A stretch of DNA of 38,492 nucleotides from Pseudomonadota bacterium (lineage in GTDB: Bacteria > Pseudomonadota > Gammaproteobacteria > Burkholderiales > Rhodocyclaceae), in the NCBI GenBank assembly GCA_018262095.1, contig JAGTRW010000041.1, positions 1 to 38,492 on the forward strand, in the 5' to 3' direction. The notes under the pieces are model-generated. The model was not told the DNA's origin. It did not search any database and saw nothing but the letters and a program-made list of their open reading frames with translations. Shown here in pieces: positions 1-37,978 of this stretch (positions are counted from its first letter, which is position 1; each line of letters starts with the position of its first letter). The translations under genes were made by a program, and so were the position numbers.

Positions 1-711
1 CGGCGTGACGATGTCGAATTTGTCGGGGCCGAGCTCCTTGACCGCCAAGTAGGCTTCGTTCTCCCAAGCCAGCAGCACGTCGCCGATACCGCGCTCGGTG
101 AAGCTCGTCGTCGCGCCGCGCGCGCCCGAATCGAGCACCTTGACGTTCTTGAAGAGCTTGCCGACGAACTCGCGCGCCTTCTCGTCGTTGCCGCCCGGCT
201 GCTTGAGTTCGTACGCCCACGCCGCCAGATAGTTCCAGCGCGCACCGCCCGAGGTCTTGGGGTTGGGCGTGACGATGCCGATTCCCGGCTTGATCAGGTC
301 GTTCCAGTCGCGGATCCCCTTGGGGTTGCCCTTGCGCACCAGGAAAACGATCGTCGAGGTGTAAGGCGAGGCGTTGTTCGGCAAACGTTTCTGCCAGTCG
401 GCCGGGATCAGGCTCTTCTCCGACAGCGCGGTCACGTCGTAGCCCAGTGCCAGCGTCACGACGTCGGCGTCGAGCCCGTCGATCACCGCGCGCGCCTGCT
501 TGCCCGAGCCGCCGTGCGACTGGTTGATGCTCACCACCTCTTTGTTGCTTGCCTTCCAGTGCTTGGCGAAGGCCGCGTTGTACTCCTGGTAGAGCTCGCG
601 CGTCGGATCGTAAGAGACGTTGAGTAGCGTCACGTCGGCGTGCGCGACCGACCATGCGGCCGAAAGAACGGCGCCGACGGCAATGCCGGTCAGCAGCTGG
701 CGAAAGTTCAT
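1..711 (-). CDS. sbp: Sulfate ABC transporter substrate-binding protein (partial, C-terminus outside window)
   Basis: Periplasmic binding protein that would deliver sulfate (or thiosulfate) to a CysTWA-type ABC importer. The start is an ATG at 711. The first 25 or so residues form a Sec signal peptide ending in AHA before [16 protein letters not shown], the conserved beginning of the Sbp/CysP family. Further family landmarks are [32 protein letters not shown] and LAWENEA. Only 237 codons lie in the window, so roughly the last 90 to 100 residues are missing at the left edge. Any cysTWA genes would lie to the left, outside the window. Sbp and CysP cannot be told apart with certainty from this fragment. 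Confidence 0.93.
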
Positions 712-3816: not shown

Positions 3817-5823
3817 AAGTACAGGCTTCCAGCGCAGGTCAAAAGCAAAGAACGCATACGGCTTCCCGCTGATGGCGGTCCGCGCGAAGGTCGGGAAATA
3901 CTCGGCGCCCGGCGGTACATCCGGCACCGTAAATTTGAGGTCATCGTTGTCCTGATCGACGACCCATGCCCCAGTCGCTTCCTTTCCCTTTTCCATACTG
4001 GACTGCCACGCCTTCAAGTAAATCACATCGCCACCCTCGAACGAACTCGGACTTGACACCTGATTGCCTTCATTGTTTTCCAGAAAGCCGATGCATTCCG
4101 GCGCTTGACTCGGATCGGCGAAGTTGTACCGCAGCCAGTACATCCCATTTCGGCCGTATTCAATGCCCTTGCCTTTCGGCACTCTCATCATCGGAATCTT
4201 GAGCACCTGAAGTCCCATTTCGGTGGTCGGCGCGGCAATCACCGAAGCAAACTTCCCGTCCAGAGTGAACCACTTGCCATCGGCGGTGTAATGAAATCCG
4301 TTGCCAACCGGATCTCCAACCGTGTTCCAAACCGGCTGGTGCCCGTAATAGTAATTGGCAAACGTTTGGTGAATGGCCACGTAGACCTGTTCATACTTGG
4401 GGTTGGCGGTCGTAAAGGCCACCGAAATCGTTTTTGCCGCCGAGTCCTCGGCCACTGTGGCGAAAACGAGATCTTGCATCGAACGCGCATAAGCGCTAAA
4501 GCTCTTGACCAGCGCCCGATACTCGTCGGTCACGAAAGCAAAGCCATCGTATTTGGGCAGCAGCGTATCGACAGCCCAGACGGCGATACTGGGGAACATC
4601 ACGTTGAGCCCCCCCACATTATTGCGATACTTGATATTTTCGAGCTTGTACACCACGGCGCTCTTTATCGCAGCAACCAGTTCGGTCTGCTCAGCCGATT
4701 CAAAATCTCCCCTCGCCTCAATCAAGGAGGTCAAATCGACCGCGTCGGTTGTACTCGCAATGTCGATATTGGAAGCGAAGAAGTCGGGAGCCCAGCTACG
4801 GCTTTGGGCGATATTCTGCCAAGTCGCCAGTCGGCTGCTGTCGGCCCCGCTCTCCAGCAGATTTCTCAGTTTGTTCGAGAAAGCCGCCAGCGCGGCGCGC
4901 ACGCGCGGAATCGCCGCGAGCTTGGTCGTCGAAAAAGTGAGCGAATCCGCCTCGTGGGAATTGCTCTTCGCATCAGAGGCTTTGACTTTCGCCAGATAGC
5001 CTTCGGCGATTGCCTTGCCAATCGCCGCACCGTCAGCCGACGGATTGCTGACGATAAAATTCAGGAAGCTCGTGTAATCCCATCCGCCGCCGGGCTCGAT
5101 ATCTTGCGAAGCCGCCAAATACCGCCCGACATCCTTTAGCGCCTCGGCGATTTCGAGCGTCCCCATCAGACAGGCATCAAAGCCGATCACCTCGAAACGC
5201 CTCGCCTGATCGTCGCCGACCGCATCACTGATCGCCTTCCGAATATCGCTGAACGTCATCTTGCTGGCAAAGTAGTCAGGCTTGGGAACAAGGCCTGTGC
5301 CATATCCGCCAAAATCGGCCAGGGCGCCGCCACCGTGATCCCACAAGACCAGGACGTAGCGGTCCGCCGCAAAGTTGTCCTGGCCCCATTTGATGAAATC
5401 AGTGAGCGTCTGCGGGTCTCCCATGTCCTTGACGCCCTGAGACCCCTGCGGCACCAACTGATGGTTCTTGATCACGAAACGCTTGACCGTGGTCCAGTCG
5501 TCGACCAATTCACCGGACCCGGAAATATCTTTCTTGTTTGCCGCCCCGGTCGTGATGACCACGCGAAGATTGTCAGAAGAGGCGGCCGCCAGCATTTCCT
5601 TGATGTTCTTCGTCGCCAACGCAGTCCGGCCGTTCAATGCGCCGGAATCGTCGGGCGGCGCCAGACCATCTTCAAGATTGGTCCCCTCGATATAGACGAG
5701 GACGGTGGTCGACGGTGTCGCAACCGAAACCGAATCACCTGAGGACCCGCCACACCCGGAGATGAGCGCCGCCGATAAACACCACAAGACCAACAGACGA
5801 AACGAACTTAGAAGAACTCGCAT
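3793..5823 (-). CDS. Clostripain-family (C11) cysteine peptidase, predicted lipoprotein
   Basis: A 676-residue secreted protein. The N-terminus has a lipoprotein signal with lipobox LISGC (Cys about residue 24), followed by a Gly/Ser-rich linker. The peptidase domain shows the C11 hallmarks: TVLVYIEGTNLED, the histidine of WDHGGG (about 163), and the catalytic Cys of FDACLMG (about 218). C11 enzymes cut after basic residues and often activate themselves. The start at 5823 is preferred over a GTG at 5841 because an AAAGG-type ribosome site precedes it and the signal peptide then has a normal length. The C-terminal 300 residues are unassigned, possibly beta-rich. It stands alone and converges with the LysR gene. 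Substrate unknown. Confidence 0.88.
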   Translation of the reverse strand: MRVLLSSFRLLVLWCLSAALISGCGGSSGDSVSVATPSTTVLVYIEGTNLEDGLAPPDDSGALNGRTALATKNIKEMLAAASSDNLRVVITTGAANKKDISGSGELVDDWTTVKRFVIKNHQLVPQGSQGVKDMGDPQTLTDFIKWGQDNFAADRYVLVLWDHGGGALADFGGYGTGLVPKPDYFASKMTFSDIRKAISDAVGDDQARRFEVIGFDACLMGTLEIAEALKDVGRYLAASQDIEPGGGWDYTSFLNFIVSNPSADGAAIGKAIAEGYLAKVKASDAKSNSHEADSLTFSTTKLAAIPRVRAALAAFSNKLRNLLESGADSSRLATWQNIAQSRSWAPDFFASNIDIASTTDAVDLTSLIEARGDFESAEQTELVAAIKSAVVYKLENIKYRNNVGGLNVMFPSIAVWAVDTLLPKYDGFAFVTDEYRALVKSFSAYARSMQDLVFATVAEDSAAKTISVAFTTANPKYEQVYVAIHQTFANYYYGHQPVWNTVGDPVGNGFHYTADGKWFTLDGKFASVIAAPTTEMGLQVLKIPMMRVPKGKGIEYGRNGMYWLRYNFADPSQAPECIGFLENNEGNQVSSPSSFEGGDVIYLKAWQSSMEKGKEATGAWVVDQDNDDLKFTVPDVPPGAEYFPTFARTAISGKPYAFFAFDLRWKPVLSEDKSIE

Positions 5824-10853: not shown

Positions 10854-11741
10854 TCAGTCGGCCAAGCGCTTCAAGCACTGTGCGCTGTGGTCGTCGGCCG
10901 GAACATAGACCAGCAGCCGATCGCCGTTTTTCGGCGCCGACCACCAGTGGGTCTGCTGCACCGTGACGACGCCCAACTCCGGCAGCAGAAAATGCTTGAT
11001 CTGGTTTTCGATGCCGCGCACCTCGTAACGCTGCCAGATCTGCCGGAATTCGTCTGACACGTCGAAATAGCGTTGCAGTTGCCGTTCCCATTGTGGATCG
11101 TTGGTATGTTCGGCCATCGCCGAGCGGAACATCGCGACCATGCGCGGCAGGATGTCGTCCCAGTCCATCAGGCGCGATCGCCAGGTCGGGTTGGCGAGCG
11201 CGAGATAAAGGCAATTGCGGTCTTCCTTGGGCAGCGACTCGATATCGACGCCGACCAGTCGGCTGTAGGCCCGGTTGCAGCCGATGATACTGAAACGCGC
11301 GTTCTGGATCACCGCCGGAAAGGGATCGAGCCGATCGAGGATGGCCTGCCCCGAGGTCGAGAGATGTTCGCAGGTCGGCGCGCGCGCCGCTGCGCCCTGC
11401 GCCTTGAGTCCGGCGAGAGTGAACAGGTGATCGGTTTCAGCCGTACTGCATTGCAGTGCTGCGGCAACGGCGCCGAGCACCTTGCTTGAGGCGCGGATCG
11501 GGCGTCCCTGTTCGAGCCGGGTGTACCAGGTCACGCTGATGTCGGCGAGCAACGCCACGTCGTCGCGGCGCAAGCCCGGCGTCCGGCGTCGGCCGACGCC
11601 GGGCAGGCCCATGCGTTTGGGGTCGAGGCTTTCGCGCCGGGCACGCAGGAACGCGCCTAGTTCCTGCGCGCGATTGGCATCGGTAAAGCGCTCGGCAGAC
11701 GATTCGACGGCAGTCGTCGCGTTACGCCGGTCAGCATTCAT
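10854..11741 (-). CDS. XRE-type regulator with MmyB-like ligand-binding domain
   Basis: 295 residues. N-terminal helix-turn-helix (ELGAFLRARRESLDP, TPGLRRDDVALLADISVTWYTRLEQGR) followed by the MmyB-like sensor domain (LDPFPAVIQNARFSIIGCNRAYSRL, then NCLYLALANPTWR), which binds a fatty-acid-like or other small ligand in known examples. The start at 11741 is supported by a strong GGAGGTGA ribosome site; the in-frame upstream extension is in the divergent promoter region. It is divergent from an MFS exporter, which it most likely represses. Confidence 0.9.
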   Translation of the reverse strand: MNADRRNATTAVESSAERFTDANRAQELGAFLRARRESLDPKRMGLPGVGRRRTPGLRRDDVALLADISVTWYTRLEQGRPIRASSKVLGAVAAALQCSTAETDHLFTLAGLKAQGAAARAPTCEHLSTSGQAILDRLDPFPAVIQNARFSIIGCNRAYSRLVGVDIESLPKEDRNCLYLALANPTWRSRLMDWDDILPRMVAMFRSAMAEHTNDPQWERQLQRYFDVSDEFRQIWQRYEVRGIENQIKHFLLPELGVVTVQQTHWWSAPKNGDRLLVYVPADDHSAQCLKRLAD

Positions 11742-11771
11742 GGCAGTCACCTCCAGAGTGGCAGCATTTAT

Positions 11772-14153: not shown

Positions 14154-14693
14154 ATGCCCGAAGAGCTTCCTGACACCGACACTTATTACATGGGAATTGC
14201 GTTTGCTGTTCGGGAGAAAGCAAATTGCACCGGGAATCGTGTTGGAGCGGTAATTGTCCGTGGTAACCGGGTTATTTCTACTGGATATAACGGTGTCCCA
14301 GAAGGCATGACCAATTGTTTGGATGGTGGATGCCTTCGCTGCAAAAATCCAAACGGTATGTTTTCTAGCGGCACGGGGTACGATCTCTGTATTTGCGTCC
14401 ATGCAGAACAGAATGCCATTTTATCCGCCGCACGTTTTGGTATCGCAGTTGAGAACTCAACCCTTTATACGACAATGCAACCGTGTTTTGGCTGTGCCAA
14501 GGAAATAGCTCAAGCCAAGATCAGCCAGGTGGTTTACTTACACCCGTGGGTTCCAACGGATGCAGACCCTGAAATGGACAGGAACAAAAAAATAGAATAC
14601 GAAAAAATCATGGCCAGGATAAAAATTAAGCAGCTCAGTATTACCGACCCGCGCGCGGAATGGGCCGTGACTACGCTAAGGGGAAAACGCTAG
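14154..14693 (+). CDS. dCMP (deoxycytidylate) deaminase family protein
   Basis: 179 residues, cytidine-deaminase fold. Zinc-site motifs are complete: CVHAEQNAI (His83, Glu85) and PCFGC (Cys111, Cys114), with GAVIVRGNRVISTGYNGVP upstream as in dCMP deaminases / ComEB. The enzyme would turn dCMP into dUMP for dTTP synthesis. An AAAGG site precedes the ATG. The gene is clearly AT-richer than its neighbours and lies beside a transposase remnant, suggesting recent acquisition. A role in nucleotide-pool defence is possible but unsupported. Confidence 0.9.
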   Translation: MPEELPDTDTYYMGIAFAVREKANCTGNRVGAVIVRGNRVISTGYNGVPEGMTNCLDGGCLRCKNPNGMFSSGTGYDLCICVHAEQNAILSAARFGIAVENSTLYTTMQPCFGCAKEIAQAKISQVVYLHPWVPTDADPEMDRNKKIEYEKIMARIKIKQLSITDPRAEWAVTTLRGKR

Positions 14694-36516: not shown

Positions 36517-37668
36517 TTAGTTTCCGTTGCCCACGATTGGACGCAGGACTTTTTCATAGATCAGATCGGCCTGCTCTACGCCACGTGATGGGTGATTGAC
36601 GACATCCAGCCACACCTGGATGACATCGGAGACGATCAAACTATCCTGATGCACGGCGCCCCGGAAGACCGATTTCGGTGAAAGCGCTTGTCGGACGACG
36701 AGGTCTGGCAACTCTGAAGGAGAAGCAACGACCAGCGCTCTCCATTTCTTGTCGTTAGTTTGCGGTAGTTTGGGCACGTAAACATAGGGAGGAACGCCGC
36801 TGACGTGCCCGAGTCCCAACGCGTCGGCGGCAGCAAAAGCCCCTAGACAAGCATCTCCTTCATGACTCGCCACAAGGCCGCGAATTTGCTGTTGTCCAGA
36901 TCCTCGTATGAGAAAGCGCATTGGCAATTCGGGCGATGGGCGCATCGAGGCCGATCGCCAACGGCGAAACAACTCTGCACGACGAACGAGAGCGATATAT
37001 CGCGACGAATCGTCCAAAAACCCTTCATCGCGTAGCTGTTTCAAAAACCGTGATGCACTCATGGTTGATGCCTTGGCGACCTCGGCGAGCTCGAAACCGC
37101 TTTGGTACTTTTGTCTTGGTGCTTGTAGCAGTTGAACTGGTATTTCAGGGGCCAGTAGCACTTTGAGCATCCACTGGTTGAGATCCGAGAAGAGATTGAC
37201 GGGCTGATTCGATGGGGCGTTTCCACGCCTTCGAAGCTCTTCCGGCTTGGCGTTGAGCGCCTCGAGTCCGCGTCCCCTGAAAAATCTGAGGCCCCTTTTG
37301 GATATCAGGCCGACAGCTACATTCGGCGCGTAGCGTTCAAAAAACGAACCAACTTTCTTCGCCAGGGATTGGGATGCGTCCTCTACAGAAACCACTGCCA
37401 GCGGCTGCGCATTGCCCGCATCGATGGCATTCGCTTGTGCCTGCAGGATGGCCTGCGACAGCAAAGGAATGACTCGATCGGCACGTCCTTCTGCGAGGGC
37501 CTTGATCTCAACGACATAGCGCTGCGCTCCCCTGCGCACAATCAGATCCGGGCGTTTCCCTCCGCATTCCGGCGATCGATCGACGTCCCAGCCGCCGGCC
37601 GCGAATAGATCAGCTACGAGAGCCTCAGCGTTTTCACTTCGGTCTTTGGATGAATAAGAAGGGAGCAT
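36517..37668 (-). CDS. AbiEi-like regulator/antitoxin with N-terminal PD-(D/E)XK nuclease-like domain
   Basis: 383 residues from the ATG at 37668. Residues about 10-100 look like a restriction-endonuclease fold: PDLIV (Asp41), then VVEIKA (Glu54, Lys56) and a following helix LLSQAILQAQ; the PD...ExK triad is intact. A winged helix follows (about 190-230: FELAEVAKASTMSASRFLKQLRDEGFLDD). The C-terminal part (CLGAFAAADALGLGHV, LIVSDVIQVWLDVVNHPSRGVEQADLIY) matches the AbiEi antitoxin pattern. The start at 37668 has GAGG nine bases upstream; ATG 37677 or TTG 37683 are alternatives but would lie too near the predicted transcript start. It would repress the operon through the 18-bp sites upstream and neutralise the nucleotidyltransferase. 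Whether the nuclease domain cuts is unknown. Confidence 0.75.
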   Translation of the reverse strand: MLPSYSSKDRSENAEALVADLFAAGGWDVDRSPECGGKRPDLIVRRGAQRYVVEIKALAEGRADRVIPLLSQAILQAQANAIDAGNAQPLAVVSVEDASQSLAKKVGSFFERYAPNVAVGLISKRGLRFFRGRGLEALNAKPEELRRRGNAPSNQPVNLFSDLNQWMLKVLLAPEIPVQLLQAPRQKYQSGFELAEVAKASTMSASRFLKQLRDEGFLDDSSRYIALVRRAELFRRWRSASMRPSPELPMRFLIRGSGQQQIRGLVASHEGDACLGAFAAADALGLGHVSGVPPYVYVPKLPQTNDKKWRALVVASPSELPDLVVRQALSPKSVFRGAVHQDSLIVSDVIQVWLDVVNHPSRGVEQADLIYEKVLRPIVGNGN

Positions 37669-37686
37669 TCTGTGCATCCTCAATCG

Positions 37687-37758
37687 ATAACATGGCCATT
37701 ATACATACCATGGCCAAGGTATCAACCGTGCCCATGGTAGAAATCTTGGCCATGCCGG
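37687..37758. promoter_or_regulatory. Four tandem 18-bp operator copies in front of the AbiE-like operon
   Basis: Four units (37687-37704, 37705-37722, 37723-37740, 37741-37758) have their TGGCCA or TGCCCA cores centred exactly 18 bp apart. The column consensus is ATACCATGGCCATGGTAT, a perfect palindrome. Unit 2 matches it in 16 of 18 positions; the others are more diverged, unit 4 most. Units 1 and 2 cover the promoter. Such an array fits cooperative autorepression by the winged-helix antitoxin. Confidence 0.75.
37698..37725 (-). promoter_or_regulatory. Sigma-70 promoter of the AbiE-like operon
   Basis: Minus strand: -35 TTGATA (37725-37720), 16-bp spacer, -10 TATAAT (37703-37698). Transcription would begin near 37691, leaving a leader of about 22 bases before the ATG at 37668. 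The -10 is a perfect consensus and operator unit 2 fills the spacer. Confidence 0.75.
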
Positions 37759-37769
37759 CAGGCCGTGTG

Positions 37770-37978
37770 CCGCCTTGACGGCGCGCGTAAGCCTGTCACG
37801 CCGACCACAGTGATAGAGTCGGTCACCCCGAGCGTAGCGCGCGTGTATGTCATCCCGAGCGTAGCGGCCAAGTATGTCATCCCGAGCGCAGCGAGGGATC
37901 TTTGCGCCGCGAAGAACCGTTCGCCATCGGAACCGCAGTGTTCCGCCTTGACGGTGGGTGGCTCTTTCCTGTCACGCC
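37770..37978. repeat. Mosaic of intergenic repeats with three tandem 27-bp units
   Basis: Three 27-bp units start at 37822, 37849 and 37876, each beginning with GTCAYCCCGAGCGYAGCG. They are flanked by two copies of a second module in the same orientation: CCGCCTTGACGG (37770-37781 and 37943-37954) followed by CCTGTCACGCC (37792-37802 and 37968-37978). The TCATCCCGAGCGCAGCGAGG motif is a widespread intergenic repeat. No coding potential. Confidence 0.7.

Follow-up and report, generated by a model that had tools for sequence, protein, structure and literature searches.

The closest described counterparts of the operon considered here are type IV toxin–antitoxin systems with the same gene order, in which an AbiEi_2 (PF09952) regulator gene precedes a nucleotidyltransferase gene, there of the AbiEii family and here of PF12281. 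AbiEi_2 operons also have repeated sequence ahead of the first gene. Repressors that pack helically along contiguous DNA units are known from MetJ, on its met boxes, and from the omega protein of pSM19035, on its heptads; both read units of 8 or 7 bp through a ribbon-helix-helix fold, whereas the present locus combines a winged helix with 18-bp palindromes.

The AbiE antitoxins of Streptococcus agalactiae and Streptococcus suis repress at repeats in their own promoters. The S. agalactiae operator comprises two 23-bp repeats, 3 bp apart, which are occupied by two AbiEi monomers (PMC7319586), and that of S. suis two palindromes, both required for repression (PMC11062541). In the operon described here the repeats are conserved and the regulatory role of the protein is predicted; unlike the streptococcal operators, the arrays consist of two to five gapless 18-bp palindromes. 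A further likeness is to the Mycobacterium tuberculosis pair Rv2827c–Rv2826c (MenT4), which likewise has four repeats over the promoter and a nucleotidyltransferase partner. The Rv2827c repeats are, however, gapped 23-bp sequences (gaps of 13 and 4 bp, with negative cooperativity, according to PMC7319586), and the units here are contiguous. The S. agalactiae antitoxin is presented as a two-domain protein with no PD-(D/E)XK-like domain, in contrast to the regulator here, which has one. A term search of a paper on M. huakuii (PMC8436566) turned up no passage on an operator.

Array and promoter in the window

The window, that is, the whole 38,492-nt stretch of DNA that was analysed, carries near its end an array of 18-bp units immediately ahead of a predicted regulator gene, which is followed by a PF12281 nucleotidyltransferase gene (Table 1). 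By its predicted anatomy the operon is AbiE-like; it is not filed as AbiE because the regulator passes none of the curated AbiEi models (Pfam, NCBIfam, PADLOC) and its partner lacks the DUF1814 (AbiEii) match by which such toxins are recognized.

Table 1. Positions of the operon, its promoter and its operator units in the window, with one viral array
Feature	Position	Strand	Remarks
Nucleotidyltransferase gene, 271 aa, PF12281	35701..36516	-	ATG directly after regulator stop codon
Regulator (antitoxin-like) gene, 383 aa	36517..37668	-	Same start (37668) in L002 and L003, compared by eye
Regulator domains	residues ~1-135; ~160-235; ~245-383		PD-(D/E)XK-like; winged helix; AbiEi-like C-terminal
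Likely Shine-Dalgarno GAGG	37678..37681	-	Read from sequence; 9 nt ahead of ATG
Array of four 18-bp units	37687-37758		Exact 18-bp phase; centres 37695.5, 37713.5, 37731.5, 37749.5
Operator unit 1, nearest gene	37687..37704		Centre 37695.5; 20.9 bits; 6/9 self-complementary pairs
-10 box TATAAT, within unit 1	37698..37703	-	Promoter scan
Operator unit 2, between -35 and -10	37705..37722		Centre 37713.5; 22.1 bits; 8/9 pairs
-35 box TTGATA	37720..37725	-	Promoter scan
Operator unit 3, core GCCC, abuts -35 from upstream	37723..37740		Centre 37731.5; 13.1 bits; 6/9 pairs
Operator unit 4, degenerate	37741..37758		Centre 37749.5; 3.2 bits, in phase; 4/9 pairs
Viral array (example, L144)	11713-11748		

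Units were scored with a symmetrised matrix built from 202 in-phase sites of homologues, the window being excluded. The array in the window is graded: units 1 and 2 are strong, unit 3 is moderate and unit 4 is weak. Units 2 and 1 have the top two matrix scores of the 38-kb window, and no place scored above 15.7 when the window was shuffled 20 times by mononucleotide. On re-reading, the coordinates given in the initial annotation, its four centres and the 18-bp phase were all correct, and its figure of 1.7 helical turns per unit agrees with 18/10.5 = 1.71. Other parts of that description require adjustment. Its count of four units holds for three, the fourth being degenerate at 3.2 bits. The consensus, described as perfectly palindromic, is so over the inner 16 bp but not at the outermost pair; among the four units position 2 is tied (T2/A2) and position 18 is G2/C1/T1. 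The consensus sigma-70 promoter said to underlie two units is present, but as a sigma-70-like promoter on the minus strand that matches at 11 of 12 positions, spanning the junction of units 2 and 3 and reaching into unit 1, in which the transcription start is also predicted to lie.

We put at roughly 0.8 the probability that the array is the autoregulatory lattice operator of an AbiEi-like toxin–antitoxin-type operon, in which dimers of the regulator pack at 18 bp and repress. A dimer would bind each GGCC-centred palindrome through its winged helix, and adjacent dimers would touch at the fixed 18-bp step, each rotated by about 103 degrees from the previous one. The row of dimers would coat the core promoter (-35 box, spacer, and -10 box with start site) and keep both the regulator and the nucleotidyltransferase genes from being transcribed; when the level of regulator drops, the promoter would open. 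What is observed is the array with its strict conservation, its association with the regulator gene and its register with promoter-like boxes, together with the homology of the regulator to AbiEi antitoxins and the MenT-like predicted fold of the partner. That the regulator binds, as dimers that pack cooperatively and repress, and that the partner acts as a toxin, is inferred.

Two other features of the window lie outside the array. A single site at 14605-14622 scores 16.7 bits, third best in the window; it falls inside an ORF (14154-14693) and, being probably coincidental, is not taken as a further operator. Directly upstream of the array, at 37822-37893, there is a 27-bp tandem repeat, GTCATCCCGAGCGTAGCG..., with 2.7 copies and 86% matches. 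A wider regulon in the same genome was considered and rejected on a search that allowed one mismatch, in which nothing but the C17 array fits the two-unit pattern; with up to three mismatches there are 71 places, against 6 for the reversed pattern.

Conservation of the 18-bp step

A contig scan for relatives of the regulator found 87, of which the best 80 were used, with a threshold of 7 bits for a unit and a phased pair defined as two units of at least 7 bits each. The check set by the initial annotation, which would have been refuted had homologous operons lacked the array, came out in its favour: 73 of the 80 loci carry at least two units in phase. Together with the window, these arrays have three units in 54 cases, two in 14 and four in 6. 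All phased pairs lie near the gene start, and there is none elsewhere in 729 kb of homologous loci. The distance between consecutive sites is 18 bp in 139 of 144 cases (80 loci and the window); the other five are 16 bp (two), 36 bp (two) and 43 bp (one). An extra weak site at 16 bp is seen in L018 and L039.

A test that makes no use of the motif gave the same step. When 24-bp segments of the regions upstream of the gene in 78 homologues and in the window, 79 in all, were matched with themselves at lags of 8 to 44, the best lag was 18 in 62 regions, 36 in 8 and another value in 9, and the mean self-match was 0.716 at lag 18 and 0.603 at lag 36, against 0.385-0.447 at all others. Chance, or an origin of the array as shuffled sequence, was rejected on the matrix scores, the lag test and the scan for pairs in 729 kb.

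Seven of the 80 loci fall below two units. Two of these could not be read, L049 because of an assembly gap and L067 because the contig begins 17 bp before the match. Three (L076, L080 and L081) have, by eye, 18-bp arrays of another sequence; the best lags of L080 and L081, which are among the nine regions with other values, were 34 and 24, and the slice analysed cut through both arrays. The remaining two, L004 and L071, have no array, and the upstream region of L004 is unrelated. Comparison of L071 (about 4700-5000) with its close relative L065 shows a region that is apparently decayed, in which the regulator is kept and the array is gone; the 1.9 kb of sequence downstream contains no partner gene either.

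Four further loci with arrays were recognized by eye: L091, from IMG/VR, with three units, and L092, L093 and L135, with five, three and three, which are Burkholderia/Paraburkholderia loci and represent three of eight plasmid records with a relative of the regulator. In the lag test these gave 18 (L091), 36 (L092) and 18 (L093), and the L135 slice missed the array. A phased pair was found in none of 30 loci retrieved through PF12281 alone, and in none of 11 AbiEi_2 loci.

The promoters of the 11 AbiEi_2 loci (L124-L134) have no 18-bp array, the self-match at lag 18 (0.417) being indistinguishable from that at other lags (0.418). Within 150 bp upstream of these genes there is instead a 17-bp direct-repeat signal with GTTCA-type half-sites, for which the 8-bp self-match at lag 17 is 0.807, against a 95% shuffle maximum of 0.716 (11 loci). 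This signal is a putative second lattice of different step. The two AbiEi_2 and AbiEii genes touch or overlap in 10 of the 11 loci; in the other, L133, the sequence ends 410 bp after the gene.

The 18-bp step is also retained where the sequence of the units differs. L041, L043 and L079 have GCGC cores at an unchanged step, L076 has GATC cores with dyads every 18 bp, and by eye L080 and L081 keep the step with units of the TATCCTGATCAGGA type. The latter units, at about 4847-4882 in L080 and 892-927 in L081, look like HipB operators, which have the form TATCC-N8-GGATA. The recognition helix is different in these proteins (MSASRF/MSAFRF versus M(T/S)ANRL, LPSARR and SPAAWR). Regulators with the same core label tend to group on the protein tree, which requires 6 changes of label against a mean of 10.9 in shuffled labels, none of 200 of which was as low. 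Helix and core do not correspond strictly: in L023 the cores are GCGC and the helix is near-usual, MSASRL, and L092, with GCGC-like cores, and L091, with GGCC, share a near-identical helix, MTATRL in both. As the phase outlasts the change of core, it is probably set by packing of neighbouring proteins, and the variant arrays suggest that it is probably a property of the protein rather than of the sequence. Spacing that stays fixed while the recognized sequence drifts constitutes a natural experiment on the packing of a repressor along DNA; with the phase as the one number to be changed, it opens cooperativity in AbiEi-type antitoxins to direct test.

These observations bear on whether the dimers cooperate at all. 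They might instead bind independently, 18 bp being the closest packing free of clashes and the graded sites giving a stepwise response of the kind proposed for Rv2827c. The unit scores in the window are indeed graded (22, 21, 13 and 3 bits), steric packing alone can fix a spacing without cooperativity, and Rv2827c fills its four repeats with negative cooperativity and graded affinities (PMC7319586). Independent binding would nevertheless permit longer gaps, yet all but five of the steps are exactly 18 bp, and the step is unchanged when the recognized sequence changes. We consider it unlikely.

Outer half-sites at the ends of arrays carry about 10-12 bits per half, equal to the inner ones, which favours the GGCC-centred 18-mer as the repeated object over a dyad across the junction. 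Pairing between halves, computed over 214 sites, bears on a highly improbable reading, namely that the palindromes function as hairpins in the leader RNA. In its favour, the last unit is placed where the transcript begins, perfect palindromes can fold, and pairing somewhat exceeds independence at positions 4/15 (0.46 vs 0.36), 9/10 (0.87 vs 0.77) and 3/16 (0.85 vs 0.80). The other pairs are, however, approximately independent (0.97/0.97, 0.84/0.85, 0.57/0.58, 0.75/0.75, 0.63/0.61 and 0.33/0.29), and such largely independent pairing, with a modest excess at three pairs, speaks against a hairpin. Moreover, in arrays of the window's class the predicted start site has most of the units upstream of it.

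In keeping with an operator over a promoter, the best -10 box is in register with the lattice in 59 of 74 arrays, although this register is partly built in, since the left arm of each unit, TANNAT, resembles a -10 box. Of 36 arrays from Pseudomonadota, including the window, 25 have the best -10 box in their last unit; of 33 from Acidobacteriota, 24 have it in their first. The examples of the acidobacterial pattern that were read (L061, L065, L066 and L072) have the -35 box outside the array.

Regulator, partner and distribution of the operon

The window regulator has no match to any Pfam model at E 0.001. Alignment of profiles (hhalign) between 78 regulators and 11 AbiEi_2-type antitoxins nevertheless gave a probability of 97.3 (E 2.7e-11) over 312 columns, which indicates that the regulator is, by sequence comparison, a full-length remote relative of these antitoxins. 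The AbiEi_2 model itself matches 5 of the 78 members at E <= 1, the best being the C-terminus of L076 (E 0.0029, under the cut-off of the model). The tie between an operator-like array and the gene at 36517-37668 drawn in the initial annotation is supported, whereas binding, polymerisation and cooperativity of the protein are predictions; the likeness to AbiE that accompanied it stands as remote homology. The operon represents an AbiEi-like class in which a regulator with a nuclease-like domain and a winged helix is joined to a MenT-like partner. Not one of the models applied from Pfam, NCBIfam and PADLOC calls this regulator AbiEi or a defence protein.

At E <= 1, the N-terminal part of the 78 relatives matches PD-(D/E)XK models, with Hjc hit by 26 proteins and Mrr_cat by 24 (lowest E 2.9e-9); helix-turn-helix models match in the middle of the protein. 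An AlphaFold2 model of the regulator has a pLDDT of 92.2 and a pTM of 0.64, the latter leaving the orientation of the domains uncertain. In Foldseek this model retrieved AF1548 (E 6.2e-5), Hjc and winged-helix proteins, and no AbiEi structure was among its 50 best PDB matches. R207, in the recognition helix, is invariant in all 78 regulators. The most conserved segment is the helix F160-K169 (FSDLNQWMLK), immediately ahead of the winged helix, which may be a contact between subunits of the dimer or between neighbours in the lattice.

The conserved D...ExK (D41 in 65, E54 in 64 and K56 in 75 of 78), located in the expected fold, qualifies the N-terminus as a predicted PD-(D/E)XK domain. Its presence invites the alternative that this domain targets the lattice or is regulated there, the nuclease being silenced or activated on the array or on foreign DNA, to which the two-unit copies on viral contigs (see below) would lend some colour. 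This appears improbable, as L091, L092, L093 and L135, which lack D41 and E54, and L027 and L028, which lack E54, still have arrays.

The partner in the window matches PF12281 at E 9.4e-30 (104.6 bits, cut-off 26.3), and no other Pfam family at E 0.001. A structural model of it (pLDDT 94.2) was compared with the PDB in Foldseek; all 11 matches at E <= 0.001 are MenT1, MenT3 or MenT4, with TMq of only 0.35-0.50. Among 59 nucleotidyltransferase sequences G25, G26, D52 and E101 are invariant, and D50 and K172 nearly so. The partner thus has a MenT-like predicted fold with a nucleotidyltransferase active site. Similarity to AbiEii proteins in hhalign is weak (probability 6.4, E 0.0058). The mention found in literature on GSU2403, PF12281 or NTP_transf_8 concerns another subject, according to its abstract.

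The partner gene lies downstream of the regulator in 71 of the 80 loci; in the nine others the downstream sequence extends for 333 bp (L044), 1.9 kb (L071) or 5 kb (the other seven). Five of these loci retain an array, of two units in L007 and in each of L027, L028 and L029 and of three in L078, with no nucleotidyltransferase match within 5 kb downstream, which suggests that the array belongs with the regulator gene. In L080 and L081 the partner is missing as well, and the variant units replace the usual motif.

The regulator proteins form 37 clusters at 60% identity (82 rows, including the window, L091, L092, L093 and L135) and come from Pseudomonadota, Acidobacteriota, Gemmatimonadota and Myxococcota; contigs labelled Cyanobacteriota and Eiseniibacteriota also carry the gene, although labels from metagenomes may be wrong. 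The family is sporadic. It was found in one of 148 relatives searched, this being the genome of the window itself, and in 398 genomes of the phylum that genome alone has a full-length match. Partial matches occur in seven other genomes of the 398 (E 2e-4 to 6e-4), and a second, partial match is present in the genome of the window (E 9.4e-4).

A defence-island context was considered and set aside, as no downstream neighbour is constant among 122 of 126 neighbour ORFs (the four of L080 and L081 being omitted). PADLOC single-ORF matches among those listed (25 of 77 families) include Dsr1, a type III restriction enzyme, JetA and a type II methyltransferase, and, also among the matches listed, four PDC-S01 models match two neighbour ORFs.

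Two-unit copies on viral contigs

Scans of IMG/VR that began from the array rather than the gene revealed lattice-bearing contigs, putatively viral, without the operon in the stretches covered. The pattern TANCNNGGCCNNGNTA-NN-TANCNNGGCCNNGNTA occurs in 39 stretches with 34 different arrays (L142-L180; example in Table 1). Control patterns in the same collection gave no match with a 19-bp phase, none when reversed, and one with a GGAC core, which is compatible with coding; this sole match reads like a variant of the motif. At the eight positions that the pattern leaves unspecified, the viral sites score a mean of 1.52 against the bacterial matrix, compared with -7.80 (sd 0.62) for background draws. 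These arrays have two units each, except L145 (10595-10684), which has five, and end abruptly, a further in-phase unit on either side being found in none of the 34. A BLAST match of the L145 array to Vibrio vulnificus plasmids was discarded, since the region concerned is a 9-bp tandem repeat beside parA and not this lattice.

Among the 98 of 134 ORFs of the array contigs that were scanned, there are matches to phage families of terminase, portal, DNA polymerase and integrase. The 41 virus records with array hits (8 + 33), many of which are short fragments, yielded no relative of the regulator; the same search detected the operon-bearing L091 record as expected. The 41 records include L140, whose two units the full pattern missed, and L141, in which the match lies inside a CDS and is probably due to chance. 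The viral arrays lean away from long genes, and some, their coding frames being read by eye, lie inside genes. Open frames of 100 codons or more contain 24 of the 34 (random places in the same stretches, mean 29.3, range 24-32) and frames of 200 codons contain 10 (random places 18.3, range 11-24). Part of this lean is attributable to stop triplets within the motif.

A 36-bp consensus query against 50,697 phage records returned only a 22-nt match (E 5). The exact two-unit pattern was absent from all 398 bacterial genomes, a weak result because the pattern also misses the window's own array; it matches 21 of the 73 operon arrays.

The viral elements raise the possibility that another DNA-binding protein, of host or phage, reads the array, and that the operon lies behind it by coincidence. 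In favour of this, the viral contigs have the two-unit element and no detectable regulator. Against it, the array accompanies the regulator gene in different phyla, plasmid records included; the absence of the exact pattern from the 398 genomes counts in the same direction, with the weakness just noted. A coincidence of this kind seems quite improbable.

If the regulator does read its array in the autoregulatory manner proposed, the copies in diverse environmental phages might be decoy or sensor sites for the AbiEi-like repressor of the host, shifting the balance of toxin and antitoxin during infection, a suggestion that we offer tentatively and regard as doubtful. Replicating phage DNA would pull the repressor off the host operon by means of a two-unit, 36-bp copy that is present once per sampled stretch and unaccompanied by a regulator. 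Alternatively, the viral sites may be operators for phage genes, or may belong to a phage protein that has diverged beyond detection. Titles and the opening lines of abstracts retrieved in a literature search mention nothing on phage operator decoys for antitoxins. Were the viral copies read by the same proteins, they would be phage-borne operator elements aimed at a toxin–antitoxin operon, and a decoy role would imply a contest between phage and defence operon at the level of the operator.

tRNA genes are found near the viral arrays in 9 of 40 loci scanned and are not a constant feature. Three stretches, L142, L155 and L174, are rich in them, with 12, 19 and 19 tRNA genes, respectively, and in L142 and L155 the arrays adjoin tRNA genes. 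These tRNA-rich contigs may be set beside the predicted fold of the partner, which is that of the tRNA-modifying MenT toxins.
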